Source: an uncultured Bacteroidia bacterium (GTDB lineage Bacteria; Bacteroidota; Bacteroidia; Bacteroidales; UBA932). From it: a stretch of DNA of 64,000 bases. The stretch lies in NCBI GenBank assembly GCA_902785065.1, contig CACZXH010000002.1:1-64000 (forward strand), in the 5' to 3' direction. Shown piece by piece: positions 1,624 through 18,214 of this stretch. Each line of letters begins with the position of its first letter. Within the stretch, counting starts at the first letter, position 1. The notes below the pieces were generated by a model that was not told the origin of the DNA, ran no database searches, and worked only from the letters and a program-made list of their open reading frames with translations. Both the position numbers and the translations under genes were made by a program.

Positions 1624-3825
1624 TTAGAAACTATAAGTAAGTTTTACCATAAGATTCCGGAGCGCCTGCGGGTACAATCCGGCCTCCACATACTCACTGC
1701 CTTCCCAGGCCCGGTAAACCCAAGCATAGGCATAATAGGCACGGTTCAGGAGGTTGTTCACGTACAGGGATAAGCCAAGGGAACCAGTCCGCAACGGAAT
1801 GGAATGCGACAAGGACAGGTCGGTCACAAACCAGGCCGGAATCGCGCGTCCCTCGTTCTGGGTATTGTCCCAATACTGCTTGCCAACATACTTGCCGCTC
1901 AAGGTCAACGAGAGCGGCTTCCACCATCCCCCGAAAGGAGACAGCGCGATGCGGCCCATACCCACCACGGACGGAGAAAGGAGCATGGTCGTGTTATCGT
2001 AGGTTTCCGTCTTGTAGCCCCCGTCCACCCAGTTTTCCAGATAGGCGGTAAAGGAACGCAGCTTGTTCGTGGACAGAGTCAGATTCGCATCGGCCCGGAG
2101 CCAGGACGCAGGCGTCCAGGCGGCCGCGAGTTCGATGCCCCGGCGCCAGCCCCGTCCCACGTTCTCCTTGATCGCATAGCCGGAATTGCTCAACTTGCCT
2201 GTCTCCAGGAGCATGTCCTTGTATTCCATCAGATATAGGTTGGCGGAAGCGGTGAACCGTTCTGCGGCGAACTGGTACCCGGCCTCTATGTCCAGCATCG
2301 ACTCGGGCCGGATGGGGATCATCTCGCCCTTGATGTTTTCCTTGATGTCGCTCTTGCCCGGCTCGCGGTGACCGACGGCGGCGGAAGCGTACAGCTTATG
2401 GGCGCCGAATTCGGCTGTCAAGCCCGCCCGGGGGTTGAAGAAATCCCATTTCTCGTGATAGTCGAGCGGAACGGAGCTTGCCTTGTCGTCCCGGCCCACC
2501 AGTGCGTAGCCGATATGCCGGTACTGGAGGTCCGCATAGGCAGTCAGCCACGGAAGCGGCTGGTACTCCGCGCGGAGGAACGCGCTCACTTCCTGCTTGG
2601 TGCCCGTATTCCGGTACCAGGTCTCGTCGCGGTTCATGGACGCATAATCATAATCCGGCCCCAGAAGGCGCGCCCACAGCATTTCTCCCCAATGTCCGCC
2701 GACATAGCGCGAGAGGTTCACTCCCCCGTTCACGCGCAGGTCTGCTCCTACATAGCGGAGTTCCGACTGCAGCACATACAGATTGTTGCCCATCCGCTTC
2801 CGGTAGATCATGTCGCTCTTTTTCTGGCCCTGCCACGCGGAGAAAGGATAGCCGAACTCGGCGAACTTCCGGCCCGTCTTGTAATACTCGTCGTAGCCGT
2901 CGCCGCGGGTATAGTCGGCCGTGTTGGCCCAGGTCAGGCGGTCCGTCAACCGGCGGGTGTAGTTCAGCTGGATATGGTGCTGGGCGTAGTTGTCGGTCTG
3001 GTTCGGGTAGTAGCAGGTTTTCCCGCTGTCGTCCACATATTCACCGGCGCCGTTGTACGTACGGTCCACGGCATACATCTCGGGTGAAATGCCGTCCCAG
3101 GTGATTCCGCTCCGCTGGTCCCCCATCAGATAAGTCAGCCGGAGGGAATTGCGTCCCTTGAGCCAGCCGATTACCCCGAAAAGCGAGGAGGATTCGACGC
3201 CGGCGTTCCGGATGTATCCGTCCGTCCTTCCGGCCGAGTACGCCAGGTTGAAATACAGGCCGGACGGCAGCAGGCCGGACATGCCGGATACCGTGGTGAG
3301 GACGGTCCCGTACGAACCCGCGGACAGTTCCCAGCGGAAGGCCGGATCGGGCGTGACGAAGGCCGTGTTCATATTGACGCTCGCCCCGAAGGCGCCGGCG
3401 CCGTTGGCCGACGTGCCCAGGCCGCGCTGGACCTGGACGCCGGACAGCAAGGCCGTCAGCGCGGGGATATTGACCCAGAACACCTCCTGGGATTCGGCAT
3501 CGTTAAGGGTGATGCCGTTCAGGGTCACATTGACCTGCGACCCCTTGGAGCCGCGGATGGTCATCGCCGAATTGCCCAGTCCGGTACCTCCTTCGTTGTA
3601 GGTCACCACGGACGGCAGCAGGTTCAGGGCCATCGGCAGGGATTGCATGGGACTGGCGGCGCGGAGGGCGTCCTTGCCCACATCGGTGTGTGTTACGGGG
3701 GTGTGTGCTCCGGCACGGGAAGCGGAAACGACGACTGAGTCCAGTCTTTCCTGCTTTTCAGGCTCCTGCGCACCTGCGCAGAAACACAAGACGGCGAATG
3801 CCGTCATCAATACGGTTTTTTTCAT
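1624..3825 (-). CDS. TonB-dependent outer-membrane receptor, probably for thiamine
   Basis: This 733-residue protein has a signal peptide (MKKTVLMTAFAVLCFCAGAQ), a TonB-box-like segment (DSVVVSASR, residues ~30-38), a plug domain with MTIRGSKGSQVNVTLNGI and RGLGTSANGAGAFG, and a long beta-barrel ending in an aromatic residue (LTYSF), all standard for outer-membrane TonB receptors of the BtuB/FepA group. Substrate is inferred from regulation: a TPP riboswitch lies immediately upstream and its 3' end contains the ribosome binding site. TPP-controlled TonB receptors in Bacteroides take up thiamine. No inner-membrane thiamine transporter or biosynthesis gene is adjacent, so the receptor stands alone. 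Confidence 0.9.
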   Translation of the reverse strand: MKKTVLMTAFAVLCFCAGAQEPEKQERLDSVVVSASRAGAHTPVTHTDVGKDALRAASPMQSLPMALNLLPSVVTYNEGGTGLGNSAMTIRGSKGSQVNVTLNGITLNDAESQEVFWVNIPALTALLSGVQVQRGLGTSANGAGAFGASVNMNTAFVTPDPAFRWELSAGSYGTVLTTVSGMSGLLPSGLYFNLAYSAGRTDGYIRNAGVESSSLFGVIGWLKGRNSLRLTYLMGDQRSGITWDGISPEMYAVDRTYNGAGEYVDDSGKTCYYPNQTDNYAQHHIQLNYTRRLTDRLTWANTADYTRGDGYDEYYKTGRKFAEFGYPFSAWQGQKKSDMIYRKRMGNNLYVLQSELRYVGADLRVNGGVNLSRYVGGHWGEMLWARLLGPDYDYASMNRDETWYRNTGTKQEVSAFLRAEYQPLPWLTAYADLQYRHIGYALVGRDDKASSVPLDYHEKWDFFNPRAGLTAEFGAHKLYASAAVGHREPGKSDIKENIKGEMIPIRPESMLDIEAGYQFAAERFTASANLYLMEYKDMLLETGKLSNSGYAIKENVGRGWRRGIELAAAWTPASWLRADANLTLSTNKLRSFTAYLENWVDGGYKTETYDNTTMLLSPSVVGMGRIALSPFGGWWKPLSLTLSGKYVGKQYWDNTQNEGRAIPAWFVTDLSLSHSIPLRTGSLGLSLYVNNLLNRAYYAYAWVYRAWEGSEYVEAGLYPQALRNLMVKLTYSF

Positions 3826-3828
3826 ATA

Positions 3829-3905
3829 CTTTCCTCCGGCGGTATGAACCGCATCAGGTTCACGGGTATGCTCTCAACCGGGCCGGACGGCCCGATACCC
3901 CGAGT
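3829..3905 (-). promoter_or_regulatory. TPP (thiamine pyrophosphate) riboswitch
   Basis: Reading the minus strand, the conserved TPP aptamer blocks occur in order: ACTCGGGGT, GGTTGAGAGCATACCC, GTGAACCTGATGCGG and ATACCGCCGGAGGAAAGT. The variable P3 stem is GGGCCGTCCGGCCC. The last block holds the GGAGG Shine-Dalgarno sequence and ends 3 nt before the receptor ATG, so ligand binding would directly hide the ribosome binding site; no separate terminator is needed. The 5' side begins at the stop codon of the upstream cyclotransferase gene. Confidence 0.93.
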
Positions 3906-3907
3906 TA

Positions 3908-4660
3908 CTATTTCTTAACCAGTTCTATTTCAAACATTTTCGGCCAGTACTTCCCGGTCAGGAAGATCCGGCCCTGTTTGTCCACGGCGATGCCGTTCAG
4001 GACATCCGTCTCGGCGGTCCGCTCCCGGTAAGGGAGCAGGCCCCGGCAGTCTATGGTCGCCTCCACCTTCCCGTCGGACGGGTCGATGATGACGATCGTG
4101 TCGGTGGTATAGACATTGGCCCATACCTTTCCGTCAATGTATTCCAGTTCGTTCAGGTAGCTCACCGACTTCCCGTCCATGGTCACCCGCAGGCGGCGTT
4201 CCACGTTCAGGTCGCCATCCATGAAAAACAGGAAAGCGCTGCCGTCGCTGGCAATGAGCTGCTTTCCATCCGTGGTGAGGCCCCAGCCTTCGCGGGGATA
4301 CGCGAGCGTCGCCTTATACTTCCGCGTGGCCGCGTCGTACAGGAAAACGAGGTTGTTCGTCCAGGTCAGGAGATACAGGTTGTCGCCGAAGAAGATGGAT
4401 CCCTCGATGAAATACTTCCGCGAGAAGTCCATCCGGGAGAGCGCTTCGCCCGTTTCCAGGTCCACGGTGCGGAAGGTGCTCTCGCCCCACTGGCCCGTGG
4501 ATTCGTACAGCGAATCGCCGTGGAAGAACAGGCCCTGGGTGTAGGAAGTGACGTCATGGGGATACTCCCGGACCACTTTCACCTTGTATTCCCGCACCTG
4601 GGTCGTACCGCAGGAAACCGCGGCGGCAAGGAGGCACGCTATGACCAAAAACTTTCTCAT
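3908..4660 (-). CDS. Glutaminyl-peptide cyclotransferase (glutamine cyclotransferase) lipoprotein
   Basis: The enzyme family converts N-terminal glutamine of peptides to pyroglutamate and folds as a five-bladed beta-propeller. The sequence shows YTQGLFFHGDSLYESTGQWGES, GEALSRMDFSRKYFIEGS, YPREGWGLTTDGKQL and LNELEYIDGKVWANV, the conserved blade motifs of PF05096. The N-terminus MRKFLVIACLLAAAVSC has a lipobox with the cysteine at residue 17, so the mature protein is probably lipid-anchored. ATG at 4660 is preferred; ATG at 4666 adds two residues. Longer readings of the frame run into RNase P RNA and are not real. About 250 residues, as expected. Confidence 0.9.
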   Translation of the reverse strand: MRKFLVIACLLAAAVSCGTTQVREYKVKVVREYPHDVTSYTQGLFFHGDSLYESTGQWGESTFRTVDLETGEALSRMDFSRKYFIEGSIFFGDNLYLLTWTNNLVFLYDAATRKYKATLAYPREGWGLTTDGKQLIASDGSAFLFFMDGDLNVERRLRVTMDGKSVSYLNELEYIDGKVWANVYTTDTIVIIDPSDGKVEATIDCRGLLPYRERTAETDVLNGIAVDKQGRIFLTGKYWPKMFEIELVKK

Positions 4661-4708: not shown

Positions 4709-5045
4709 GAAAAAGGTGGGACGATCTGCCGCGCCGTCATTCCGGGCTTGACCCGGAATCCCGGTGAGGAAAGTCCGCACAGGGCAGGGCGCCTGGCTGT
4801 GGAAAGCACAGAAGGGAGCAATCTTTTCCGTCCGTAACAGAGAACGACCGCCCGAAAGGGCAAGGGTGAAAACGCGGGGTAAGAGCCCACGACGCCGTGC
4901 GGCGACGTACGGCGGGTACGGCGGCAGGCCTGCAAGACCAAATATACCGGCAGATGAGGGCGGCCCGTCCGATGCCGGGGGGTAGGTTGCGAAGATAAAT
5001 GGCAGATTCAAAAACAGAAAGCGGCTTACGGCCCCGCCTTTAACC
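4709..5045 (+). ncRNA. rnpB: RNase P RNA (bacterial type A)
   Basis: Catalytic RNA that matures tRNA 5' ends. Diagnostic segments are GAGGAAAGTCCGCACAGGGCAG (4766 on, spanning the conserved P4-proximal core), ACAGAGAACGACCGCCC, GGGTAAGAGCCCACG, and near the 3' end ACAGAAAGCGGCTTACGG. P1 pairs AAAGGTGGG (4712-4720) with CCCGCCTTT (5033-5041); P2 pairs GATCTGCC (4723-4730) with GGCAGATT (5001-5008). The P3 hairpin (4737-4760) is an ATTCCGGG/CCCGGAAT stem closely resembling a dispersed repetitive palindrome found elsewhere in this window. Ends are estimated from P1 pairing and the promoter. Confidence 0.95.
4737..4760. repeat. REP-like palindrome inside RNase P RNA (P3)
   Basis: TCATTCCGGGCTTGACCCGG followed by AATC: an 8-bp stem with a CTTGA loop. 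It shares the pattern TCATT-Y-CG-R-GCTTG with the copies at 42102-42130 and 55005-55032, differing by compensatory stem changes. Confidence 0.55.
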
Positions 5046-5047
5046 AC

Positions 5048-5083
5048 AAGAGGACGATCCCGAAGGGCCGTCCTCTTTTCTTT
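5048..5083 (+). terminator. rnpB terminator
   Basis: AAGAGGACG...CGTCCTCTT hairpin with an inner CCC/GGG pairing and a GAA loop, followed by TTTTCTTT. It abuts the stop codon of ilvE on the opposite strand, so it separates two converging units. Confidence 0.85.
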
Positions 5084-6122
5084 ACACCTCCACGAACCGG
5101 CACCAGCCGTGCTCATCGGGGAATTCGCCGTCCTGGATGGCCCGGATACGCCTGTAGAGCGCCGTGGACTTCGGGCCCACTTCCCCATCGGGACAGTAGC
5201 GGAACTCGCGGGAAACTTCCGGCTCCTCGAGCACGGGTTTCATGTCGATGTGCGAGAGCGGGGTGATGACCACGGCGGTGCCGCAGCCGCCCACTTCCTC
5301 GAAGGTTTCCAGTTCCTCCAGCGGGACCGGCCGCTTCTCCACTTCCATGCCCAGGTCGACAGCCACCTGCTGCAGCGTCTTGTTCGTAATGGACGGAAGG
5401 ACGCTGTCGGAGAGCGGGGTGATGTACTTGTTCCCCTTGATGCCGAAGAAATTGGACGAGCCGAACTCGTCGACGAACTCGCGGGTGGAGGAATTCAGGT
5501 ACAGGAGCTCCGCATAGCCCTGCTCATGGGCGAATTTGTAGGGCTTGAAGGTGTTCGCGTAGTTCGCGCCGATCTTGTAGCTGCCGGAGCCCTTCGGCGC
5601 CGCCCGGTCATAATTGCCCGGAATCACGGCCGCGCAGGACTTCAGGTGCGCGCCGTAGTAGGAGCCCACCGGGGCGCACATGACGGCGAAAACGGCCTCC
5701 GGATACGGCACGAGCTGCATCTGGGGATGCATGCCCACCAGCAGCGGACGCAGGTACATCGAAGCGCCCAGGCCGTACGGCGGGAGGAACTCCATGTTGC
5801 CGCGGATGCAGGCCTCGCACATCTCGTAAAACATCTTTTCATCCGGGCAGGGCATGCCCAGGTAGTCGGCGGTCCGCTGCAGGCGGGCGGCGTTCTGATC
5901 GGGCCGGAACATAGCCACGCGACCGTCCTTCTGCCGGAAGGCCTTCAGGCCCTCGAAGCAGGAAATCGCGTAGTGGAACACCTGCGCGAAGGGATCGAAC
6001 GTGAAGGAGAAGGTCTCCGTCGATTCGGGTTTGGACCACTTGCCGTCCTTGAAATGCGAGACGACAACCGTGCGGGTCCGATAGGCGTCAAAGCCCAAAG
6101 TCTTCCAATCTATCTGTGCCAT
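5082..6122 (-). CDS. ilvE: Branched-chain-amino-acid aminotransferase
   Basis: Pyridoxal-phosphate enzyme that performs the last step of Leu, Ile and Val synthesis by transferring an amino group from glutamate to the 2-oxo acids. 346 residues of the class IV (BCAT II) type: FHYAISCFEGLKAFR and FRPDQNAARLQRTA near the N-terminus, MYLRPLLVG mid-protein, SGSYKIGANYA with the PLP-binding lysine, and EVGGCGTAVVITPLSHI near the C-terminus, the cofactor phosphate-binding loop. It is the last gene of the ten-gene ilv-leu operon, 6 bp after leuB, and converges on rnpB. Confidence 0.95.
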   Translation of the reverse strand: MAQIDWKTLGFDAYRTRTVVVSHFKDGKWSKPESTETFSFTFDPFAQVFHYAISCFEGLKAFRQKDGRVAMFRPDQNAARLQRTADYLGMPCPDEKMFYEMCEACIRGNMEFLPPYGLGASMYLRPLLVGMHPQMQLVPYPEAVFAVMCAPVGSYYGAHLKSCAAVIPGNYDRAAPKGSGSYKIGANYANTFKPYKFAHEQGYAELLYLNSSTREFVDEFGSSNFFGIKGNKYITPLSDSVLPSITNKTLQQVAVDLGMEVEKRPVPLEELETFEEVGGCGTAVVITPLSHIDMKPVLEEPEVSREFRYCPDGEVGPKSTALYRRIRAIQDGEFPDEHGWCRFVEV

Positions 6123-6128
6123 AATGTC

Positions 6129-7178
6129 TTAGATTTTCGATGCAATCCAATCGCCCACCGCGGAGGTGGAGCAGCTGCCGCCGAGGTCCTCGGTCGTAAC
6201 GCCGGCCTCCAGGGAGGCGGCGACGGCCTCGCGGATGGCCTTGCCCTCATCCATCAGGCCGAAGGCGTACTCGAACATCATCGCCGCCGACAGGATGGCC
6301 GCGACAGGGTTCGCGATATCCTTGCCGGCTGCCTGCGGATAGGAGCCGTGGATCGGCTCGAACAGGGAGGTGTGCTCGCCCACCGAAGCCGACGCCAGCA
6401 GGCCCATGGACCCGCTGATGCAACTGGCCTCGTCCGTGAGGATGTCGCCGAAGGTGTTCTCGGTCACGAGGACGTCGAAGAACTTCGGCCAGCGGATGAG
6501 CTGCATGGCGGCGTTGTCCACGAACATGTAGTCGACCTGGATATCCGGGTAGTTCGGCGCCATTTCCTGGGCAACCTGGCGCCACAGGCGGGAGGATTCC
6601 AGCACATTCGCCTTGTCCACGACCGTAAGATGCTTGCGGCGGCGTCCGGCGTACTCAAAGGCGAGCTTCAGGATGCGCTCCACCTCGGCACGGCTGTAAA
6701 TACAGGTATCATAGGCGGTGTTCCCATGGTCCTTCCGGCCTTTCTCGCCGAAGTACATGCCGCCGGTGAGTTCCCGGATGCACAGGAAATCGGCCCCATC
6801 CACGAGCTCGGTCTTCAGCGGGGACTTGTCCACCAGGGACTTGAAGGTCTCCACCGGACGGAGGTTCGCGTACAGGCCCAGCTGCTTCCGGATGGCCAGC
6901 AGGCCCTGTTCCGGGCGCACCTTGGCCGTGGGGTCGTTGTCGAACCGGGGGTCGCCCACCGCGCCGAAGAGGACGGCGTCGCTGTCCATGCACAAGGCGT
7001 GGGTTTCGGCCGGATAGGCGTCGCCGAAGCGGTCGATGGCGCAGGCGCCCACATAACCGTAGGTATAGGACACCTCATGTCCGAAGCGGGCGCAGACGGC
7101 GTCCACGACTTTGACGGCCTGGGCCACGACTTCCGGTCCGATGCCGTCGCCGGGCAGTTTTGCAATCTTGAGTCTCAT
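6129..7178 (-). CDS. leuB: 3-isopropylmalate dehydrogenase
   Basis: Oxidises and decarboxylates 3-isopropylmalate to 2-oxoisocaproate with NAD+, third step of leucine synthesis. 349 residues, normal length. Seen: [12 protein letters not shown] (N-terminus), [25 protein letters not shown], the catalytic YDT..Y region, [14 protein letters not shown] with the catalytic lysine, [20 protein letters not shown] (metal-binding aspartates) and [15 protein letters not shown] (NAD binding). Its start overlaps the end of leuA2 by 4 bp, so translation is probably coupled. Confidence 0.97.
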
Positions 7179-8681
7179 ATCAGGTTGTTTTCGATTAAAT
7201 TCAACATTTTGACCGTGGCCTTGATGGCGGCTTCGGCCTGGTCGGAGTCCACGCCCCGGGTCTTGAAGCCCTTGCCCTGCCAGTCCCAGGAGATGGTCGT
7301 CTCCACGAGAGCGTCGGTCTTGCCCCCGGGCGGAATCTTTACAACGTAGTCCGTCAGGCGGGGATGCCGGCGGCCCAGGCGGTCGTAAATGATCCAGAGC
7401 GCCTTCATGAAGGCGTCGTACTGGCCGTCACCGGCGGCGGCTTCCTCGTACTCGGTGCCATCTATGTCGATACGGATGTTCGCAATCGGACGCATCCCGC
7501 GGGCGAGCTGCAGGCTGTAGTTGATGATATGGATCCGGTCCGGCGCCGTCGTGGACACGTCCCCTTTCAGGACGTCCGCGACGATGAACGGGAGGTCCTC
7601 CGGGGTCAAGCTTTCTTTCTTGTCACCGAGTTCGACGACGCGGGCCGTGACCTGCTTCATTTGCTCGGGCGTCAGGGTAATGCCCAGGGATTCCAGGTTC
7701 TTGACAATGTTCGCCTTCCCGCTGGTCTTGCCAAGGGCGTAGTGGCGGTGGCGGCCGAAGCGCTCCGGCAGGAGGGCGTTCTGGTACAGCCCGCCCTTGC
7801 GGTCGCCGTCGGCATGGACCCCGCTCGTCTGGGTGAAGACGAACTCGCCCACGAGGGGCTTGTTCGCTGGTCTCCACATACCGGCATACGTGCATCAAGC
7901 GGCTTTCATCGAGGGTGTTCTTCACCTTCAGATGATCGTTCAGGATGCCGATGGCGCTGGAAACGGGCAAGTTGCCGGTCCGCTCCCCCAGCCCGTTCAC
8001 GGTCGTGTGCAGGCCCTTGACCCCGGCGCGGACCGCCTCAAAAGCGTTGGCGGCGGCGAGGTCGTAGTCGTTGTGCGGATGGAAGTCGAAATGGACGGAC
8101 GGATAGCGCTCCACCATGGTCCGGCAATACACCGAGGCCCGCGTCGGGTCCAGGATGCCGAGGGTGTCCGGGAGCATGATCCGCCGCACGGGCGCATCCT
8201 TCAGAGCGTCCACCAGGAAAAACACGTACTCCGGCGAGTCCGCCATCCCGTTGGACCAGTCTTCCAGGTACACATTGACCTCCAGGCCCTTGGAAACGGC
8301 GATGCGGATGTCCCGGAGAATGTCGTCCAGATGCTCCTCCGGCGTTTTCCGGAGCTGGGCGGTCACGTGGCGGAGAGAGCCCTTCGTGAGGAGGTTCATC
8401 ACCTGTCCTCCGGCCGAACGGATCCAGTCCACGGACAGGCCGCCGTCCACGAAACCGAGCGCCTCCACGGCGCCGAGCTTCCCGCAGGTGGAAGCCCAGG
8501 CGCAGATCTTGGCGAAAGCCTCCTGCTCGCCGCGGGAAACCCGCGCCGAGGCCACCTCGATCCGATTGACCTTCAGTTCATCCAGGAGCAGGCGCGCAAT
8601 GGCCAGCTTCTCGTCCGGATTGAACGAGACGCCGGCGGTCTGCTCGCCGTCACGGAGGGTGGTATCCAGGATTTCGATCAT
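7175..8681 (-). pseudogene. Second 2-isopropylmalate synthase-family gene (leuA2 or citramalate-synthase-like), frameshifted
   Basis: Frame A (8681 down to a stop at 7623) encodes the DRE-TIM catalytic domain: [16 protein letters not shown] at the N-terminus, LPDTLGILDP, FHPHNDYDLAAANAFEA (metal histidines) and NGLGERTGNLP. Homology then continues in frame B (about 7879 to 7175): PANKPLVGEFVFTQTSGVHADGD, YALGKTSGKANI and the C-terminal allosteric LeuA dimer domain. The switch lies at VET|PANKP near 7877, where family members have roughly seven more residues; a deletion of about 20 nt explains both the gap and the frame change. A separate intact leuA lies in the same operon. The intact enzyme would condense acetyl-CoA with a 2-oxo acid; whether citramalate or isopropylmalate was the product cannot be told. 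Confidence 0.88.
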
Positions 8682-9268
8682 CGTTTTTCGTAGGCTTCAA
8701 TCTTGTCCTTCTGGAGGAGCAGATAGTCGATGTCGTCCAGCGCGTTCATCAGGCAGTACTTCTTGTACGCGTTCAGCTCGAAGGACTGGCTCCGGCCCGT
8801 GGCAAGGTTCGTCACGGTCTGGTTCGGGACATCCACCCGGACTTTCGTCGCGGGATCCGCCTCGATGGAGGCGAAGAGTTCCTCCAGGAAATCCGGGGTC
8901 ACGACCACCGGCAGGACGAAGTTGTTCAGTTCGTTGTTCTTGTGGATATCCGCGAAGAAACTGGAAATCACCACTTTGAACCCATAGCCGGCAATGGCCC
9001 AGGCCGCATGCTCGCGGCTGGAGCCGGAGCCGAAGTTGCGGCCGGCCACGAGGATTTCACCGCCGTAGCGAGGGTCGTTCAGGACGAAGTCCGGATCCGG
9101 CGCGCCGTCCGGAAGGAAGCGCCAGTCGCGGAACAGGTTGTCGCCGAAGAAGCTTTCGTCCCGCGTGGTCGCCTTCAGGAAACGGGCGGGAATGATCTGG
9201 TCCGTGTCCACGTTCTCGAGCGGAAGCGGAACGCAGGTGCTCTCGATGATGTCGAATTTCTGTTTCAT
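8678..9268 (-). CDS. leuD: 3-isopropylmalate dehydratase small subunit
   Basis: Swivel-domain partner of LeuC in the isomerisation of 2- to 3-isopropylmalate. 196 residues; the signature region [13 protein letters not shown] (residues ~19-31) and [17 protein letters not shown] (~76-92) are intact, the latter forming the substrate-recognition loop. It overlaps leuC and leuA2 by 4 bp each. Confidence 0.97.
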
Positions 9269-10659
9269 AGCAGTACGCGGGGATCAGTGATGAAACCGGT
9301 GACGGCCGCAGCGGCCGCCGTGAGCGGGCTGGCGAGAAGTGTCCGGGAACCGGGGCCCTGCCGGCCCTCGAAGTTCCGGTTGCTCGTGGAGACGCAGTAT
9401 TTCCCGGCGGGAACCTTGTCCGGGTTCATTGCCAGGCAGGCGGAACAGCCCGGCTGGCGGATCTCGAAGCCGGCGGCTTCGAGGATCTTGTCCAGGCCCT
9501 CTTCCTCGATCTGGCGGCGGACCTTCCAGGAGCCGGGGACGAGCCAGGCCACCACGCCGGGCGCCTTCTGACGGCCGGCGGCAATGGATGCGAACGCGCG
9601 GAAATCCTCGATGCGGCCGTTCGTGCAGGCGCCGAGGAAAACATAGTCCACAGGTTTCCCCAGGAGCATGTCTCCCGGACGGAATCCCATGTATTTCAAG
9701 GACTTGCAGAAGGAAGCATGGGCCTCGGCAGGGATATCGTCCAGCGTGGGCAGATAGCCCGTGATGGCGATGCCCATACCGGGATTGGTGCCGTAGGTGA
9801 GCATCGGCGCAATCTCGGCCGCGTCGAAGACGATTTCCCGGTCGAAAATGGCGTCATCGTCGCTGCGGAGCTGCTTCCAGGCGGCAACGGCCTTGTCCCA
9901 GTCCTCCCCCTTCGGTGCATAATCGCGGCCCTGGAGATAGGCGAACGTGATATCGTCCGGGGCGATGAAACCGCCGCGGGCGCCCATTTCAATGGAAAGG
10001 TTGCAAAGCGTCAGCCGGCCTTCCATGGACAGGGCCCGGACAGCGGAACCGGCATACTCCACGAAGTAGCCCGTCGCGCCGCTGGTGGTGAGCTTGCTCA
10101 TCAGGAACAGCGCCATGTCCTTGGCGGTCACACCCCGTCCGAGGGTGCCCTCGATGCGGATCCGCATCGATTTGGGCTTCTGCTGCAGGATGCACTGCGA
10201 GGCCATGACCATTTCCACTTCGGACGTGCCGATGCCGAACGCCACGGCGCCCACAGCACCATGCGTCGATGTATGCGAGTCGCCGCAGACGATGGTCATG
10301 CCCGGCAGGGACAGGCCCTTCTCCGGTCCCACGACGTGGATGATGCCGTTGTCCGGGTCCATCATGCCGTAGTGCGTGAGCCCGAACTCAGCGGCATTGG
10401 CCGCAAGGGCGTCCACCTGCTTCTTGGAAACCGGGTCCTCGATGGGCTTTTCCTGGCCCTCGGTCGGGGTATTGTGGTCCGGCATGCAGATAATCTTCTC
10501 CGGACGCAGGCAGCGGATACCCCGTTCGCGCAGGCCGTCGAACGCCTGCGGACTCGTCACTTCGTGGCAATACAGCCGGTCGATGTACAGCTGGTCGGGT
10601 CCGCCTTCCACATGCTGGACGACATGCGCGTCCCAGATCTTGTCAAAGAGGGTATTCAT
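9265..10659 (-). CDS. leuC: 3-isopropylmalate dehydratase large subunit
   Basis: Aconitase-family subunit that carries the [4Fe-4S] cluster of isopropylmalate isomerase. 464 residues, full length. The N-terminal CMPDHNTPT, the [13 protein letters not shown] motif, the cluster ligand in [15 protein letters not shown] and the paired cysteines in [12 protein letters not shown] are all present, followed by [17 protein letters not shown]. Overlaps leuA upstream and leuD downstream by 4 bp. Confidence 0.97.
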
Positions 10660-12149
10660 ACAATCTTGTTGATACAGTCCACATAGGCCTCGATGGAGGC
10701 CGTCACAATGTCGGTCGAAGCGCCGAAGCCGTAGTACACCCTTCCCTCGTTCTCCACCTGCATATGTACCTTGCAGCAGTCATCAGACCCCTTGGAGACA
10801 CCCTGGATGGTGTATTCGTTGATGGTGAGATGCCGCTTCACGATCTGTCGCAGCGCGTTGATGGCGGCGTCCACCGGCCCGTTGCCGGTTGCGGCCGCCT
10901 CGAACTTCTCCCCGGCGATGTCCAGCCCGACGGAGGCCACCGGCTTCACGCCGATGCCGCTCGTCGCCTGGAGCCAGTCCACCTTGATGCGGCGCACAGC
11001 GGCCCGGTCGGCCCCGGCGAGCATCAGGATGTCGTCGTCATGGATCTCCTTCTTGCTGTCGGCAAGGCGGAGGAACTGCTCGTACACCTCGTCCAGCTTG
11101 TTCTCGTCCAGCTTCACGCCATTCACTTCCAGGCGGTACTTGAGCGCCGCCCGGCCGCTGCGGGCCGTCAGGACGATGGAATTCGTGTCAATGCCGACGT
11201 CCTTCGGGTCGATGATCTCGTAGGTCTCGGCGTTCTTCAGGACGCCATCCTGGTGGATACCGGACGAATGGGCGAACGCGTTCTTGCCGACGATGGCCTT
11301 GTTCGGCTGCACCGGCATGTTCATCAGGGACGACACGAGCCGGCTCGTGGGATAGATGCGCTTGGTATTGATATTCGTCTCCAGCGGAATCCCGTGATGG
11401 GCCTTCAGGATCATCGCGATCTCCTCCAGGGCGGTGTTCCCCGCCCTTTCGCCGATACCGTTGACCGTGACCTCGCACTGGCGGGCGCCGTTCAGCAGGC
11501 CGGCCATCGTGTTGGCCGTCGCCATCCCGAGGTCGTTGTGGCAATGGGTGGAGAGGATGGCTTTGTGGACACCGTCCACATGTTCCATCAGGTACTTGAT
11601 CTTGGCACCGAACTCCTCCGGCAGGCAGTAACCCGTCGTGTCGGGGATGTTCACGACCGTCGCGCCCGCCTTGATCACCGCCTCCACCACGCGGGCGAGG
11701 AACTCGTTGTCGGTACGGCCGGCGTCCTCCGCGTAGAATTCGACATCCTCGACGTACTTCTTCGCGTACTTGACGGCGCGGACAGCCCGTTCCAGGACCT
11801 CTTCCCGGGTGGAATTGAACTTATAACGGATGTGCGAATCGGAGGTGCCGATTCCGGTATGGATCCGGCCCCGCTTGGCGTACTTCAGCGCCTCCGCGGC
11901 CATGTCGATGTCCTTTTCCACGGCCCGCGACAGCGCGCAGACCGTGGGCCAGGTCACCGCCTTGGAGATCTCCACCACCGAGTTGAAATCACCCGGCGAG
12001 GAAATCGGGAAACCGGCCTCGATGACGTCCACGCCGAGGAGCTCCAGGGCCTTGGCGACCTGGATCTTCTCCACGGTGTTCAGCTGACATCCCGGGACCT
12101 GTTCCCCGTCGCGGAGCGTGGTGTCGAATATGTACACCCGGTCGCTCAT
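10656..12149 (-). CDS. leuA: 2-isopropylmalate synthase
   Basis: First committed step of leucine synthesis: acetyl-CoA plus 2-oxoisovalerate to 2-isopropylmalate. 497 residues with the full architecture: catalytic TIM barrel starting [32 protein letters not shown] (metal-binding histidines), [10 protein letters not shown] and [12 protein letters not shown], then the accessory domains and a C-terminal LeuA dimer regulatory domain (residues ~360-497) that senses leucine in this family. Intact, unlike the paralogue at 7175-8681. Four-bp overlaps with ilvC and leuC. Confidence 0.96.
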
Positions 12150-13155
12150 CGGTCGATCTCTTCGGGACGGAGTTTCCGGACGGCGGCGCCGGTGCGCCAG
12201 AGTTCGCTCTCGCGGAGCGCCTTCAGTTCCTTCTCCAGGCCTTCGCGGTAATCCGGCTTGGAATTCGCGTCGATGGAGACCTGGGCTTCCTCGCCGCTGG
12301 CCACCCGCTGGTACAGCTTTTCGAACACGGGCTTGGTCGCATCATGGAACGGGCCCATCCAGTCCAGCGCGCCGCGCTGGGCGGTGGTGGAGCAGTTCGC
12401 GTACATCCAGTCCATGCCCTTCTCCGCGAAGAGCGGCATCAGGGACTGCGTCAGCTCCTCGACGGTCTCGTTGAAGGCCTCGGACGGGCTGTGGCCGTGC
12501 TCGCGGAGCACTTCGTACTGGGCGGACAGGATGCCCTGGATCGCGCCCATCAGGGTGCCGCGCTCACCGGTGAGGTCGGAATAGACCTCGCGCTTGAAAT
12601 CGGTCTCGAACAGGTAGCCGGAACCTACGCCGATGCCCAGGGCGAGCGTGCGCTCGAGGGCGCGGCCGGTAGCGTCCTGGTAAACGGCATACGAAGAATT
12701 CACGCCGCGGCCCTGCAGGAAGAGGCGGCGCAGGGAGGTGCCGGAGCCCTTCGGGGCCACCATGATCACATCCACGTCCGCGGGCGGGATGATGCCGGTG
12801 CGCTCCTTGTAGGTGATGCCGAAGCCATGGGAGAAATACAGGGCCTTGCCCGCGGTCAGGTGCTTCTTCACGGTGGGCCAGATCGCGATCTGGGCCGCAT
12901 CGGAGACCAGGAACTGGATGATGGTGCCTTTCTCGCAGGCCTCCTCGATCTCGAAGAGGTTCACGCCCGGGACCCAGCCGTCGGCGACGGCCTTGTCATA
13001 CGTCTTGCCCTTGCGCTGGCCCACAATGACGTTGAAGCCGTTGTCTTTCAGGTTCAGGGACTGTCCGGGGCCCTGGACGCCGTAGCCGATGACGGCGTGA
13101 ATTCCTCGCGGGTCACGACGTTTTCGTCGACCCCGCCAAAATTGATCTTTGCCAT
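12146..13155 (-). pseudogene. ilvC: Ketol-acid reductoisomerase, disrupted near the N-terminus
   Basis: The enzyme isomerises and reduces acetohydroxy acids with NADPH. The start (ATG 13155, MAKINFGGVDENVVTREEF) is the usual Bacteroidetes IlvC N-terminus, but after residue 19 the frame runs to a stop at 13054. The rest of the protein (AVIGYGVQGPGQSLNLKDNG onward) is in another frame and is intact to the end, including KGSGTSLRRLF and the knotted C-terminal domain. About 14 residues between REEF and AVIGYG are missing, consistent with a ~40-nt deletion. The loss removes the strand leading into the NADPH-binding Rossmann motif. A fragment starting at 13024 would lack the nucleotide site. No second ilvC is in the window. 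Confidence 0.9.
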
Positions 13156-13157
13156 GT

Positions 13158-13718
13158 CTATCTGTTGTTTAATTGTTGATTTCTTTCCCGTTCCCGTTTC
13201 TTCAGGAACTTGAAGACGGGCTCCTGCTCGGCGCGGGAGACCGCGATGCGGCCCGAGCGAACGAACTGCAGCACGCCGATGGGCTTGAGGTCGTCGTGCA
13301 GGGCGGCCGTCTCGTCCGAGAGGCCGGTCTTCTGGATAACCGTGAACACCTTGTTCATTTCCACGATGCGCGCGTGATAGCGGTTCAGCAAGGTTTCGAT
13401 GTCGCCGTACTCGAGGAGGGCCGGGGTGGGCACCTTGTACAGGCACAGTTCGCGGTAGACAATCTTGTCGGCCGTGTAGAAGAAGACCTTGATCACGTCC
13501 ACGCGCTTCTCGATCTGCTGGACGCTCTCGCGCACTTTCTTTTCCGAACCGGAGGTCACGATGGTGATGTTGTGGACACCCTCCATGGAGGTGGCGCCGG
13601 CGGACAGGCTCCAGATACTCAGGCCATGGCGCGTGAACACATTCGTGATCTGCGCCAGGAGGCCGATCTGGTTCTCGGTGTAGATAGTCACCGTATATTC
13701 TCTCACTTCGCTATCCAT
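13158..13718 (-). CDS. ilvN: Acetolactate synthase small (regulatory) subunit
   Basis: ACT-domain subunit that activates acetolactate synthase and confers feedback inhibition by valine. 186 residues: N-terminal ACT domain (YTVTIYTENQIGLLAQITNV, residues ~8-27, with HGLSIWSLSAGAT after it), then the small-subunit C-terminal domain with ELCLYKVPTP and IVEMNKVFTVIQKTG and VLQFVRSGRIAVSR. It overlaps the 3' end of ilvB by 8 bp and its stop is 2 bp before the ilvC ATG. Bacteroidetes usually carry this longer form. Confidence 0.95.
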   Translation of the reverse strand: MDSEVREYTVTIYTENQIGLLAQITNVFTRHGLSIWSLSAGATSMEGVHNITIVTSGSEKKVRESVQQIEKRVDVIKVFFYTADKIVYRELCLYKVPTPALLEYGDIETLLNRYHARIVEMNKVFTVIQKTGLSDETAALHDDLKPIGVLQFVRSGRIAVSRAEQEPVFKFLKKRERERNQQLNNR

Positions 13719-15414
13719 TGTACCATTCGTTTTCCGTGATCATGATCTGGTGGATGCCCTTGCCGGGGGGCACCATGGGCATTACCATCCCCTCTTCCAG
13801 GACATGGACGTCCAGGAGGAAGGGCTTGTCGTCGGCGAACATCGCTTCCAGCGCCGCATCCAGCTCCTCCCGCTTTTCAACCGTAACGCAAGGAATGCCG
13901 TAGGCACGGGCGATCATCGCATAGTCCGGATTCAGCATCCGGGTTTCGGAATAGCGGCAGCCGAAGAAGAGTTCCTGCCACTGACGGACGTTGCCCAGCC
14001 AGTTGTTGTTCAGGAGGACAACCTTCACACCCACCTGCTCCTGCATGATGGTGCCGAACTCCTGCATCGTCATCTGGATGCCGCCGTCGCCGACGAAGCA
14101 GCACACCGGACGGCCGGGTTCGGCCACCTTGGCGCCAATGGCGGCGGGCAGTCCGAAGCCCATCGTGCCGAGGCCGCCGGAGGAGATGAAGCTGCGGGAG
14201 CGCGTGAAGCGGGAATAGCGGGCGCCCATCATCTGGTTCTGCCCGACGTCCGTCACGACGACCGCCTTCTCCTCGGAAGCGCGGACCACGCGGTCCACGA
14301 CCTCGCCCATCCTGAGCATGCCGTCGGCGGGGTGCACTTCCGGATCGATGACCTTTTCTTTCTCCACGGCGTCGCAGCGGTCGAATCCAGCATTCCACGC
14401 GGGGTGTTTCCGCGCCTTCATCCGCTCCGTCAGGAGCGTGAGGACCTTCTTCGCGTCGCCGCGGAGGCCCACCTCCACCGGGATGATCTTCCCGATCTCG
14501 GAGGTGTCGATATCTATGTGGATGACTTTCGCCTGGCGGGCGTAGGTGGAGACCGTACCGGTCACGCGGTCGTCAAACCGCATGCCGACGGCCACCAGCA
14601 CGTCGCAGGAATTCGTCATGATGTTCGGGGCCACGTTGCCATGCATGCCGATCATCCCGCGGTACAGCGGGAAATCGGAAGGCAGGGCGCTGAGGCCCAG
14701 CAGGGTGGACCCCGCCGGGATATCGCCCTTCTGAAGGAACGCCTTCAGCTCCTCCTCCGCATGTCCCAGGACCACTCCCTGGCCGAACACGACAAAGGGA
14801 CGTTCCGCCGCATTCAGGAGGGAAACCGCCTTGTTCAGGGACACTTCCGACACCTTCGGATCAGGAACATAGCTGCGGATGAAGTTGCACTTCTCGAACT
14901 TGAAGTCCGTCAGGCCCACCTGTGCGTCCTTGGTGAAGTCCAGGACCACGGGACCCGGTCGGCCGCTCCGGGCGATGTAGAAAGCCCGGGCGACGGCCCA
15001 CGCCACCTCGTCCGCCGAGCGGATCTGGTAGTTCCATTTGCTGATAGGACCGGTCAGGCCGATGACATCGGCCTCCTGGAAAGCGTCCGTGCCCAGGGCG
15101 GCGGACGAAACCTGGCCGGTGATGACCACGACCGGGGTGGAGTCCGTCATCGCATCATGGACGCCGGTAATGACGTTGGTCGCACCGGGGCCGGAAGTGA
15201 CGATCACCACGCCGGGATCCCCTTTCACGCGGGCATAACCCTGCGCTGCGTGGATGGCTCCTTGTTCGTGCCGCACCAGGATATGGCGGACGCGGTCCCG
15301 ATAACCGCACAGGCTGTCGTACACGGGCATGATCTGCCCGCCGGGATACCCGAAGACGGTATCCACACCCTCTTCGATGAGGGATTGCCACAAGGCTTCC
15401 GAACCGGTAATCAT
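13711..15414 (-). CDS. ilvB: Acetolactate synthase large (catalytic) subunit
   Basis: Thiamine-diphosphate enzyme that makes acetolactate or acetohydroxybutyrate, the shared first step for Val/Leu and Ile. 567 residues. The catalytic glutamate lies in [15 protein letters not shown] (residues ~48-62), the central FAD-type domain around residues 190-340, and the ThDP motif runs [15 protein letters not shown] to [14 protein letters not shown] near residues 440-475. [15 protein letters not shown] precedes it. Overlaps ilvD by 4 bp. Confidence 0.97.
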
Positions 15415-17240
15415 ATTTCCCTGACCGCCCCCTTGTCGGCAGAACTGACCATTTTTGCATAGATTTTCAGGCTCTTGGAGACCTCCCGCTTGCGGAACGG
15501 CGGCGTGAAAGCCTTGTCGCCGCGGGCGAGTTCTTCCTGCCTCCGGCTTTCCAGTTCCCCGTCCGACAGAAGGACGCGGATGGAACGGGCCGGGATGTCG
15601 ATTTCAATGAGGTCGCCGTCACGCACCAGACCGATGGCGCCGCCCGCCGCCGCCTCGGGCGAAATGTGCCCGATGGACAGGCCGGAGGTGCCGCCGCTGA
15701 AACGGCCGTCGGTCAGGAGGGCGCATTCCTTGCCCAGGTGCACCGACTTCAGGTAGGAGGTCGGGTACAGCATTTCCTGCATGCCGGGACCGCCGCGCGG
15801 GCCTTCGTAGGTGATGACGACAACGTCGCCGCTCTTCACTTTGCCGCCCAGGATGCCGTCACAGGCCGCTTCCTGGGAGTCGAAGACCTTCGCCGGGCCG
15901 GTGAACTTCCAGATGGAAGCGTCCACACCGGCCGTCTTCACGACACAGCCGTCGGCCGCAATGTTTCCCCGGAGCACTGCCAGGCCGCCGTCCTTCGTGT
16001 AGGCGTGGGCGACGGAACGGATGCAACCGTTCTCGCGGTCGGTGTCCAGTTCCTTGTAATAAGTCTCCTGGGAGCCCAGTTCCGTCGAGAACCGCCCGGC
16101 AGGTGCGCTGCGGTACAGCTGCAGGGCCTCCTCCGTCACGTGCTCCGACAGGATGGCGAAGCGGTCCATCGTCTCCGAAAGGGAGGCGCCATCCACCCGG
16201 TAAAGGGTGGTGTCGATGAGACCCGCAACGGCCAGTTCGCGGAGGATGGAGAGGACGCCGCCGGCGCGGTTCACGTCCTGAACATGGTATTTTGCAGTAT
16301 TGGGGGCCACCTTGCAGATGCAGGGGACCTTCCGGGAAAGGGCGTCAATGTCCGCCATCGTGAAATCCACGCCGGCTTCCTGTGCCACGGCCAGCAAATG
16401 CAGGACCGTGTTCGTGGATCCGCCCATCGCGATGTCCAGCGCCATGGCGTTCAGGAACGCCGGGCGGGTCGCAATGCTGCGCGGCAGGACGCGTTCGTCC
16501 CCGTCCCGGTAGTATTTCCAGGCATTGTCGACGATGAGCCTCGCAGCCTTGCGGAAGAGTTCTTTCCGGTTCTTGTGTGTCGCGAGGACGGAACCATTGC
16601 CCGGCAGCGCCAGGCCGATGGCCTCGGTCAGGCAGTTCATCGAGTTCGCCGTGAACATGCCGGAGCAGCAGCCGCAGCCCGGGCAGGATGCGGCCTCGAT
16701 CTTCGCCACCTCGGCATCCGACAGGGAGGTGTCGGCCGACTGGACCATTGCATCGATCAGGTCCAGCTTGCGGTCACCCAGCACACCGGCCTCCATCGGG
16801 CCGCCCGAAACGAAGACCGCCGGGATGTTCAGCCGCATCGCGGCCATCAGCATCCCGGGCGTGATCTTGTCGCAATTGCTGATGCAGACCATGGCGTCGG
16901 CCTTGTGGGCGTTAACCATGTATTCGACGCTGTCCGCAATGACTTCGCGGGAAGGAAGGGAATACAGCATGCCGTCATGGCCCATGGCGATGCCGTCGTC
17001 GACGGCGATGGTGTCGAATTCGGCCGCATAGCATCCCAGCCGCTCGATCTCGGCCTTGACCAACTGGCCGGCCTCATGCAGGTGCGTATGGCCGGGAACG
17101 AACTGCGTAAAGGAATTCACCACCGCGATCACAGGTTTTCCCACCTGTTCCGGTTTCATGCCCGCTGCAGCCCAGAGGGCGCGGGCGCCTGCCATCCGGC
17201 GTCCCTCGAAGGTGACGCTGCTTCTGAAAGGATGTTTCAT
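15411..17240 (-). CDS. ilvD: Dihydroxy-acid dehydratase
   Basis: Iron-sulfur enzyme that dehydrates dihydroxy acids to the 2-oxo acids of the Val, Leu and Ile routes. 609 residues, normal length. Conserved cysteines occur in [11 protein letters not shown] (~residue 120) and [19 protein letters not shown] (~190); [18 protein letters not shown] and [21 protein letters not shown] mark the C-terminal half. First structural gene of the operon; the attenuator terminator lies 9 bp upstream of its ATG, so read-through of that terminator decides operon expression. Confidence 0.97.
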
Positions 17241-17248
17241 ACACTACT

Positions 17249-17282
17249 AAAAAACACCCCCTCCAGTGCGGACTGGAAGGGG
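17249..17282 (-). terminator. Attenuator terminator of the ilv-leu operon
   Basis: On the minus strand CCCCTTCCAGT pairs with ACTGGAGGGGG around a CCGC loop, followed by GTGTTTTTT. It sits between the leader peptide gene and ilvD. Its 5' arm and loop (CCTTCCAGTCCGC) can instead pair with an upstream segment at 17321-17308, giving the alternative antiterminator. Confidence 0.88.
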
Positions 17283-17307
17283 CTCATGTTATCTTTATAC
17301 CGTCATG

Positions 17308-17321
17308 CCTTTCCAGTCCGC
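17308..17321 (-). promoter_or_regulatory. Antiterminator segment of the ilv-leu leader
   Basis: GCGGACTGGAAAGG on the minus strand begins 2 nt after the leader-peptide stop codon and is complementary, with one bulged A, to CCTTCCAGTCCGC in the terminator. A ribosome that finishes the leader would cover this segment and let the terminator form; a ribosome stalled at Leu, Ile or Val codons would leave it free to pair. Confidence 0.82.
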
Positions 17322-17323
17322 GT

Positions 17324-17374
17324 CTACTTGACAAGGATAATAAGGACGAGAGCAAGGACGAGTACGATGTTCAT
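17324..17374 (-). CDS. Branched-chain amino acid leader peptide (16 residues)
   Basis: ATG at 17374 to TAG at 17324 encodes MNIVLVLALVLIILVK: five Leu, four Val and three Ile, i.e. 12 of 16 residues are the products of the downstream operon. Codons are mixed (CTC, CTT, GTC, GTA, ATC, ATT). It is placed between a promoter-like element and a terminator/antiterminator pair, exactly as in the enterobacterial ilv and leu attenuators. The ribosome binding site is weak by sequence, which is common in Bacteroidetes. Confidence 0.88.
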   Translation of the reverse strand: MNIVLVLALVLIILVK

Positions 17375-17399
17375 TCCGGTTTCAAATTGTTACCGGGAA

Positions 17400-17431
17400 C
17401 AAAGATGGGAAATTAGTTTTTAAAAAACAAG
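17400..17431 (-). promoter_or_regulatory. Likely promoter of the ilv-leu operon
   Basis: CTTG, 20-bp spacer, CATCTTTG on the minus strand: one mismatch to TTTG and one to TAnnTTTG. It would start transcription about 20 nt before the leader-peptide ATG. No better candidate lies in the intergenic region. Confidence 0.5.
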
Positions 17432-17449: not shown

Positions 17450-18214
17450 TTAATAATCAGCATCTGACAAGGCTGGGAAGGATTGACGGAATTGATCCAG
17501 TACAGGGCGTTTCAATTCAGATTCGATAATGTCGATACGTCCTTCCTTACAGATTGAAAGCAATTCACCGCGCGGACCGTACAAACTGGTATGTCCAGAG
17601 TACAGGTTCCCAGGGTCCTTACCGGCCCGGTTCACACCGGCGACAAAGCAGACATTCTCGATGGCACGGGCCTTCAGGAGGGCGTCCCAGGCATCGATCC
17701 GCTGCTGCGGCCAACTGGCGACGTAGAGGATCAGGTCGTAATCGGGCTTACCGTCCACCAGTTTGTTCCGCGCGAAAACCGGGAACCGGAGGTCATAGCA
17801 GACCTGGAGCAGGATCCGGAAGCCGGCATGCTCAACGACTACACGCTCCCCGCCGGCGGTATAGCGCTCATGCTCGCCGGCATAGGTAAAGAGGTGATGC
17901 TTGTCGTAATACTGATAATGGCCGTCCGGGAACACGAAATAGAATCGGTTGCGATAAGTGCCGTCCACGTGCGTGGAGACGCTGCCGGCGACGGCGCAGC
18001 CCTTACTGCGCGCATAGTCCTGCATCCAGCGAAGACTGTCCCCTTCTCCCTCCTCGGCTACCCCGATGGGGTCCGTGACGAATCCGGTGGAAAACATTTC
18101 AGGAAGGACGACAAGGTCCGTCTTCAGGGTACCCATCAGCATCCGGCGGGCATCCTCCCGGCTCCGGGCGGGATTCCCCCACTCCGGCGCCGTCTGCAAC
18201 AAGGTGATTCTCAT
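17450..18214 (-). CDS. Nitrilase-superfamily amidohydrolase (omega-amidase-like)
   Basis: C-N hydrolase family enzyme, probably deaminating 2-oxo-acid omega-amides (YafV/Nit2 type), the repair partner of glutamine and methionine transaminases. The Glu-Lys-Cys triad is visible: VVLPEMFSTGF (Glu, ~38), YYDKHHLFTYAGEHE (Lys, ~104) and LLQVCYDLRFPVFAR (Cys, ~138). 254 residues. The Cys-motif CYDLRFP and the N-terminal LLQTAPEWGN fit the omega-amidase branch better than plant-type nitrilases. A TATCTTCG element ends 4 bp before the ATG, suggesting a leaderless message. Confidence 0.87.
   Translation of the reverse strand: MRITLLQTAPEWGNPARSREDARRMLMGTLKTDLVVLPEMFSTGFVTDPIGVAEEGEGDSLRWMQDYARSKGCAVAGSVSTHVDGTYRNRFYFVFPDGHYQYYDKHHLFTYAGEHERYTAGGERVVVEHAGFRILLQVCYDLRFPVFARNKLVDGKPDYDLILYVASWPQQRIDAWDALLKARAIENVCFVAGVNRAGKDPGNLYSGHTSLYGPRGELLSICKEGRIDIIESELKRPVLDQFRQSFPALSDADY

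Follow-up and report, generated by a model that had tools for sequence, protein, structure and literature searches.

A ribosome-mediated transcription attenuator very probably (we put the probability at about 0.9) stands before the ilv-leu operon of the window, the window being the whole 64,000-nucleotide stretch of DNA analysed here. The best reading of the upstream regions of relatives is that attenuation of this kind would be widespread in Bacteroidales, gut and environmental alike. The parts of the attenuator, their recurrence, the covariation of the alternative stems, the spacing to the leader stop codon and a promoter-like box were established computationally. An initial interpretation of the window from its letters alone (the sequence-only reading) had described the leader in this one genome; leaders turned out to be widespread before ilvD in Bacteroidales, and His-rich leaders were found before hisG.

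Organization of the leader region and of the operon

The positions of the features are collected in Table 1. The leader ORF runs on the minus strand from an ATG at 17374-17372 to a TAG stop codon at 17326-17324 and encodes MNIVLVLALVLIILVK, a short, strongly hydrophobic peptide. The sequence-only reading had claimed an ORF of 16 codons with 12 of 16 residues Leu, Val or Ile, and the ORF was found in its place with exactly that composition, all three amino acids being represented. Segment 2, GCGGACTGGAAAGG, begins 2 nt beyond the leader stop codon. The terminator consists of GCCCCTTCCAGT-CCGC-ACTGGAGGGGGT followed by GTTTTTT ending at 17249, and sits immediately upstream of ilvD (ATG at 17240). 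Nine terminator-like stems were listed between 5000 and 18300, and the stem of this terminator, with 12 pairs, exceeds all others in length. The calculated energy for pairing of segment 2 with the terminator 5' arm is -26.1 kcal/mol, compared with -21.2 kcal/mol for the terminator by itself. The positions and energies bear out the proposal of a 14-nt segment, beginning 2 nt after the stop codon, that can pair with the 5' arm of the terminator. When the whole window was scanned for leader-like ORFs, a gap of up to 2 nt being permitted between stem and U-run, 47 short ORFs with a bias towards a single class of amino acids were found; a strong terminator follows only two of these, the ilvD leader and a Pro-rich ORF that overlaps a gene.

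Table 1. Features of the attenuator region and of the ilv-leu operon in the window.
Feature	Position	Strand	Basis or remark
TTG, candidate Bacteroidales -33 element	17428..17430	-	20 nt before the -7-like box
CATCTTTG, candidate -7 element	17400..17407	-	one mismatch to TAnnTTTG
Leader ORF, MNIVLVLALVLIILVK and stop	17324..17374	-	sequence reading; recurs in relatives
Segment 2 (antiterminator strand), GCGGACTGGAAAGG	17308..17321	-	can pair with the 5' arm of the terminator
Intrinsic terminator hairpin (segments 3:4)	17256..17283	-	-21.2 kcal/mol
Terminator U-run	17249..17254	-	read from sequence
ilvD, dihydroxy-acid dehydratase	15411..17240	-	NCBIfam PRK12448, 1054 bits
ilvB, acetolactate synthase large subunit	13711..15414	-	NCBIfam TIGR00118
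ilvN, acetolactate synthase small subunit	13158..13718	-	NCBIfam TIGR00119
ilvC, ketol-acid reductoisomerase	12146..13024	-	NCBIfam TIGR00465, matched from profile position 35
leuA, 2-isopropylmalate synthase	10656..12149	-	NCBIfam TIGR00973
leuC	9265..10659	-	NCBIfam TIGR00170
leuD	8678..9268	-	NCBIfam TIGR00171
Citramalate-synthase-like gene	7175..8681	-	best NCBIfam NF042433 (CimA type), 1.9e-101, under its cut-off
leuB	6129..7178	-	NCBIfam TIGR00169
ilvE, branched-chain aminotransferase	5082..6122	-	NCBIfam TIGR01123

The ten-gene order given in the sequence-only reading stands on the NCBIfam matches, with the amendment that two of the genes are each split over two frames. The ilvC region (12146-13190) has the N-terminal part of the gene in another frame just upstream, and the eighth gene, a citramalate/isopropylmalate-synthase-like gene (7175-8681), likewise occupies two frames in this assembly. 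Both are long open frames in five near relatives (L311-L315), and the splits may represent either assembly indels or recent damage. These five relatives have the identical ten-gene order, and three others have shorter ilv clusters. Elsewhere in the window we noted a class A RNase P RNA gene at 4713-5044 (plus strand) and a TPP riboswitch at 3814-3912 (minus strand), the latter upstream of a TonB-receptor-like ORF.

Leaders recur upstream of ilvD across Bacteroidales

For a survey of ilvD upstream regions, matches to ilvD were found in 54 of 151 genomes at the level of the genus, 52 of 149 at that of the family, 88 of 198 at that of the order and 183 of 247 at that of the phylum; the phylum-level matches were fetched in part only, and 80 named loci were included as well. 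This gave 295 loci in all, with an ilvD start that could be placed in 287; the other eight, which are flavobacterial, were read separately. A leader was scored as an ATG-initiated ORF of 8-70 amino acids with at least 8 Ile, Leu or Val within 12 codons. Such an ORF is present in the sense orientation in 170 of the 287 upstream regions, compared with 13 in the antisense orientation and 2.9% of dinucleotide shuffles. After de-duplication, which was by shared 8-mers without a tree and leaves counts that are phylogenetically non-independent, a leader was present in 148 of 219 upstream regions of the Bacteroidales set (everything drawn at the level of genus, family or order, together with the named records of Bacteroidota and a single locus from the phylum draw) and absent at this threshold from 71. 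The corresponding count for non-Bacteroidota records is 1 of 23, these controls being classed from the record title alone and several of them being MAGs with doubtful names; the lone positive is a 69-amino-acid membrane-protein-like ORF. The recurrence in 148 of 219 as against 1 of 23 indicates that the leader ORF is not a product of chance. A frame control on 133 leaders gave 9.8 Ile, Leu or Val per block of 12 codons in frame, compared with 2.8 and 0.6 in the two shifted frames. Conservation of the short ORF in relatives, on which the sequence-only reading had staked its case, was therefore looked for across the order and found.

Before de-duplication, 37 of the 50 loci in the window's genus and 30 of the 57 named Bacteroidota records carried a leader, the remaining 13 and 27, respectively, being leaderless at threshold. 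Among the named records a leader was found for Bacteroides graminisolvens, Phocaeicola faecalis, Odoribacter laneus and Heminiphilus faecis and was absent for Marseilla massiliensis. The leaderless loci of the genus are L013, L017, L019, L020, L024, L025, L027, L028, L031, L032, L033, L035 and L043; the attenuator seems to have been lost or replaced in them. At L043, ilvD lies directly behind a leuB-like reading frame. L017 has a short 5' region that apparently borders on a divergent gene; an inverted repeat, GGGG/CCCC, immediately precedes the start. Loci L190-L215, which belong to a distant branch of the phylum, were rejected as leader loci: 8 of 23 exceed the ORF threshold, with weak or absent terminators and long ORFs. 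Many of these loci have a long ORF with a C-terminus rich in Val, Ile and Leu that ends approximately 110-120 nt before ilvD, with no clear terminator, and this arrangement is possibly another layout.

The leaders occupy a constant place. The leader stop codon lies 70-120 nt upstream of ilvD in 122 of 148 loci, and a terminator of -10 kcal/mol or better follows within 90 nt of the leader in 134 of 148. This bears on the alternative that the ORF encodes a small membrane peptide of hydrophobic character (or one resembling a type I toxin), has its own terminator and lies before ilvD by chance. A short, strongly hydrophobic product, a promoter-like box and a terminator are all to be expected of such a gene; the constant position is not, and we consider this explanation very unlikely in view of that position and of further evidence given below.

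The leader unit carries a promoter-like box and travels with ilvD

We take TAnnTTTG to be the -7 element of Bacteroides promoters. An exact copy is found in the 90 nt before the leader at 99 of 133 loci, compared with 8.7% of shuffles, and in 80 of these 99 relatives the exact box is preceded, at a distance of 17-26 nt, by a TTG. A GGTTAC/GGTAAC-AATTTG-like stretch, located between the promoter-like box and the start of the leader, recurs within the genus (for example, window 17400-17375, L006, L029 and L037).

The nearest gene upstream in the window is nitrilase-like (17450-18214), is encoded on the same strand and ends approximately 170 nt before the terminator, an arrangement in which the hairpin could be the terminator of that gene and the leader ORF spurious. 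Only 12 of 133 leader loci had a homologue of the nitrilase-like gene within the flank that was fetched (many flanks being approximately 1 kb, so that misses are possible), yet the leader and terminator stay with ilvD, and in the window the promoter-like box lies in between. We therefore conclude that the leader unit travels with ilvD, and regard assignment of the hairpin to the nitrilase-like gene as very improbable.

Segment 2 covaries with the terminator arm

To assess the antiterminator across relatives, we took the stretch that follows the last regulatory codon in 133 loci and calculated how well it pairs with the 5' arm and whole loop of its own terminator; L168 was left out because its segment is just 9 nt. 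The whole loop was added to the arm since in some clades the loop itself seemed to take part in pairing, and this changed the outcome little. The median pairing energy is -16.7 kcal/mol, compared with -9.2 kcal/mol for shuffled sequences. Pairing is better than that of shuffles at p≤0.05 in 106 of the 133 loci and at p≤0.005 in 76, and is no better (p>0.05) in 27. In a narrower test confined to the 5' arm and three loop bases, 68 of 134 loci beat all 100 shuffles, and in 107 of 134 at most five shuffles paired as well.

The pairing is also specific to cognate partners. The summed energy of cognate pairs is -2221, compared with -1430 ± 34 over 2000 permutations of partners, the best permutation reaching -1556. 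When the arm was exchanged for that of the nearest neighbour (106 pairs), the own arm was better in 73 cases, worse in 10 and within 0.5 kcal/mol in 23. The pairing cores comprise 118 distinct strings among the 133 loci, length differences being counted as well; examples are GCGGGCTGAAAAGG with CCTTTTCAGTCCGC and GGACCGGGAAAG with CTTTCCCGGTC, and the core in Bacteroides-like loci is GAGAAAGG with CCTTTCTC. The diversity of the cores together with the preference for the cognate arm indicates that complementarity has been kept while the sequence turned over. The sequence-only reading had made the conservation and covariation of the alternative stems a second point at which it could fail, and here too the prediction survived (106 of 133 loci; 73 against 10 in the arm swap). 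Covariation of the segment after the ORF with the terminator arm is unneeded for a plain terminator and so argues against a free-standing peptide gene.

The location of segment 2 relative to the leader is consistent with control by the ribosome. Counted from the first base of the stop codon, the median limits of segment 2 are 2 nt upstream for its start and 12 nt downstream for its end, which is within reach of a ribosome at the stop codon, and the ORF enters segment 2 by at least 6 coding nt in 36 of 134 loci. We also examined the 1:2 hairpin of the enterobacterial design. Compared with recodings drawn from the leaders' own codons, this hairpin is significant at p≤0.05 in 22 of 133 loci, with approximately 7 expected; for recodings drawn from ilvD codon usage the count is 12 of 133, again with approximately 7 expected. 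The leader codons in the window are able to pair with segment 2, and synonymous recodings are nearly as good. A selected 1:2 protector or pause hairpin is thus weakly indicated at best. Of the enterobacterial attenuation design that had been read from the sequence, the leader, the terminator and the antiterminator are retained, and the 1:2 hairpin is at best weakly supported.

Effects of ribosome position upon predicted folding

The model that we favor would operate as follows. RNA polymerase would start approximately 20 nt upstream of the leader, and a ribosome would trail it through the leader codons. With charged Leu-, Val- and Ile-tRNA plentiful, the ribosome would reach the stop codon (adjacent to segment 2 or overlapping it) and would mask that segment, so that the terminator (3:4) would form and transcription would end before ilvD. 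Should any of the three charged tRNAs be scarce, the ribosome would stall in the Ile/Leu/Val block, leaving segment 2 free to capture the 5' arm of the terminator ahead of synthesis of the 3' arm; with this antiterminator in place, the polymerase would continue into ilvDBNC-leuACD-cimA-like-leuB-ilvE. The model presupposes stalling, coupling of transcription to translation, read-through at the terminator and transcription of the ten genes as a single unit.

When ribosome positions were modeled in the window, the antiterminator was the best fold with the ribosome on codons 7-14 and the terminator was the best fold with the ribosome on codon 15 through the stop codon. The terminator is still the best fold with the ribosome on codons 1-6, among which are four Ile, Leu or Val codons, because upstream leader RNA then competes for segment 2. 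With the ribosome at the stop codon and the RNA ended before the 3' arm, approximately 6 antiterminator pairs remain possible in the window.

Across the set, the expected switch emerges from equilibrium folding in 42 of 133 loci, or in 35-40 when other ribosome footprints are used. We rejected equilibrium folding as proof of the switch, 42 of 133 being too weak, and the remaining loci would therefore need co-transcriptional kinetics. When the RNA was ended before the 3' arm, at least 5 antiterminator pairs were expected in 131 of 133 loci for a ribosome stalled mid-block, compared with 24 of 133 for one at the stop codon; the value of 131 is circular by itself, segment 2 having been defined by its pairing with the arm, and the test lies in the contrast with the stop state and in the shuffles.

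In the same RNAs ended before the 3' arm, the antiterminator would form first in 99 of 133 loci if no ribosome were present. An input besides translation of the leader, such as a T-box, a riboswitch or an RNA-binding protein, could act upon an untranslated leader of this kind. Rfam covariance models run over the region gave no family at gathering score and no T-box match; at E values up to 10 only PreQ1 (on the other strand, 16.9 bits) and Chloroflexi-1 (12.5 bits) appeared, both sub-threshold. The conserved feature, moreover, is the presence of in-frame Ile, Leu and Val codons, and control by such an input has in our estimation only a few chances in a hundred.

Codon content of the leaders

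Codon choice was compared between leaders and the ilvD genes of the same 76 loci, drawn from L002-L287. The Leu codon CTA makes up 20% of Leu codons in the leaders and 2% in ilvD, and is thus ten times commoner in the leaders; ATT accounts for 71% of Ile codons compared with 31%, and GTC for 47% of Val codons compared with 26%. Skewed choice among synonymous codons for these amino acids counts against the membrane-peptide alternative.

The Leu content of the leader was related to the content of the operon. The analysis covered 69 stretches representing 68 distinct operons, 66 of them with a usable leader (one leaderless and one too short were excluded), and leu genes were sought in the contiguous cluster within at most about 13 kb after ilvD, less in some cases (L369), so that some may have been missed. 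The Leu share of the block is 0.385 where leu genes are in the cluster (n=18) and 0.280 where they are not (n=48; p=0.007), and leaders with two or fewer Leu codons make up 0 of 18 in the first group and 20 of 48 in the second. Within the window's genus the shares are 0.388 and 0.189 (n=13 and 10; p=0.003); outside it no significant difference was found between the 5 operons with leu genes and the 38 without (p=0.25). Several Leu-rich leaders precede clusters where no leu gene was found. That Leu content tracks operon content, at least within the genus, is a further point against a membrane peptide gene. The claim that one leader serves for all three amino acids agrees with these data: Ile, Leu and Val codons are all present, and Leu content is linked to the leu genes, with significance only within the window's genus.

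Leaders before other amino-acid biosynthetic genes

A hisG gene is present in 11 of the 29 family genomes searched, and His-rich ATG-initiated leaders precede it in 7 of these 11 loci, with up to 9 His in 10 codons. A hairpin with a U-run lies downstream of the leader in loci L297, L298, L301, L302, L304, L305 and L306. In 2 of the 7, antiterminator pairing as delimited here is better than that of shuffles (p≤0.05). In the window's genome hisG is preceded by MKRNDINKFHHHPVSMD, the least convincing of these leaders, with 3 His (p=0.017 by shuffling). We regard the His-rich leaders as candidates for a second set of attenuators. Peptides that are non-hydrophobic and His-rich, in the same kind of place in 7 of 11 hisG loci, are not what a chance membrane peptide gene would predict. 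For tryptophan, a search for the trpE family PF04715 gave no match in the window's genome; it matched in 4 of 29 relatives, where the gene lies behind another gene, trpB by our reading of the sequence.

Five of the eight flavobacterial ilvD loci pass a laxer ORF threshold that admits ATG, GTG or TTG starts. In L288, L289 and L292 an ORF rich in Ile, Leu and Val ends 241-285 nt before ilvD, the start in L288 being TTG. A hairpin with a U-run is plain by eye in L288 and L289 and is followed by a long spacer.

These data raise the prospect, which we consider somewhat better than even, that leader-peptide attenuation is a default form of control of amino-acid operons in Bacteroidales (at least for ilv/leu and his) and is ancient in the phylum, with stems that have almost wholly turned over. 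Attenuation needs a ribosome close behind RNA polymerase, and such a default mode would therefore imply coupling of transcription and translation in Bacteroidota. It would also imply that leader codons are tuned to particular tRNA isoacceptors, as with the rare CTA. Bacteroidales are one of the dominant orders of the human gut, and a widespread attenuator would offer a test system that can be cultivated and a handle on transcription-translation coupling in Bacteroidota.

Comparison with known systems

The ilvGMEDA, ilvBN and leuABCD operons of Enterobacteriaceae are controlled by leader-peptide attenuators (Rfam Leu_leader and relatives). The Bacteroidales leaders resemble these in that a short ORF is enriched in codons for the amino acids the operon makes, antiterminator and terminator exclude each other, and the first biosynthetic gene follows directly; the enrichment of rare CTA Leu codons is also a property of leuL. 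They differ in that there is no Rfam match and at best a weak signal for a 1:2 hairpin, in that the stop codon is at or inside segment 2, and in having a Bacteroidales-type promoter-like box; in the window, moreover, one leader precedes the entire ilv and leu pathway. In the enterobacterial textbook case an untranslated leader leads to termination, whereas the untranslated leaders here would mostly form the antiterminator first (99 of 133); this and the weak 1:2 signal would distinguish the Bacteroidales leaders from that case.

Our searches of an open-access library, judged by listings and by the passages cited here, gave no description of amino-acid sensing at the biosynthetic operons of Bacteroidales, nor of leader-peptide attenuation in that order. 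The nearest report in the phylum concerns Flavobacterium psychrophilum, for which leader-peptide attenuation is reported upstream of amino-acid biosynthesis operons (PMC9723704). That system shares the phylum, a leader peptide and a structured 5' region with ours; it belongs to another branch of the phylum, and the relevant passage of the report gives neither an operon name nor a comparative test. The present analysis covers the order Bacteroidales, with covariation. For B. thetaiotaomicron, the relevant passage is a general remark on sORFs in 5' UTRs (PMC7366714). A 2010 survey of attenuators stated that demonstrated cases of leader-peptide control were until then confined to Proteobacteria and Actinobacteria, and it added Firmicutes; its main text names neither Bacteroides nor ilv (PMC2965389).

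Actinobacterial ilvB leaders (PMC1262725; Corynebacterium ilvBNC, PMC11857589) similarly have runs of Ile, Val and Leu codons and a terminator before the first ilv gene. There the codons overlap the terminator hairpin, whereas here codons, segment 2 and terminator follow in succession. As a caution, one report describes a look-alike ilvB leader of Streptomyces coelicolor in which mutation of the codons left regulation unaffected (PMC1262725). A leucine-rich attenuator peptide of Staphylococcus aureus is reported to control branched-chain amino acid synthesis (PMC5794164), and in this the two systems are alike; the host there is Gram-positive and has CodY as a second regulator. The kind of mechanism proposed here is thus that of the textbook and has been hinted at for Flavobacterium; what stands out is its wide conservation in Bacteroidales, with small departures from the known design.
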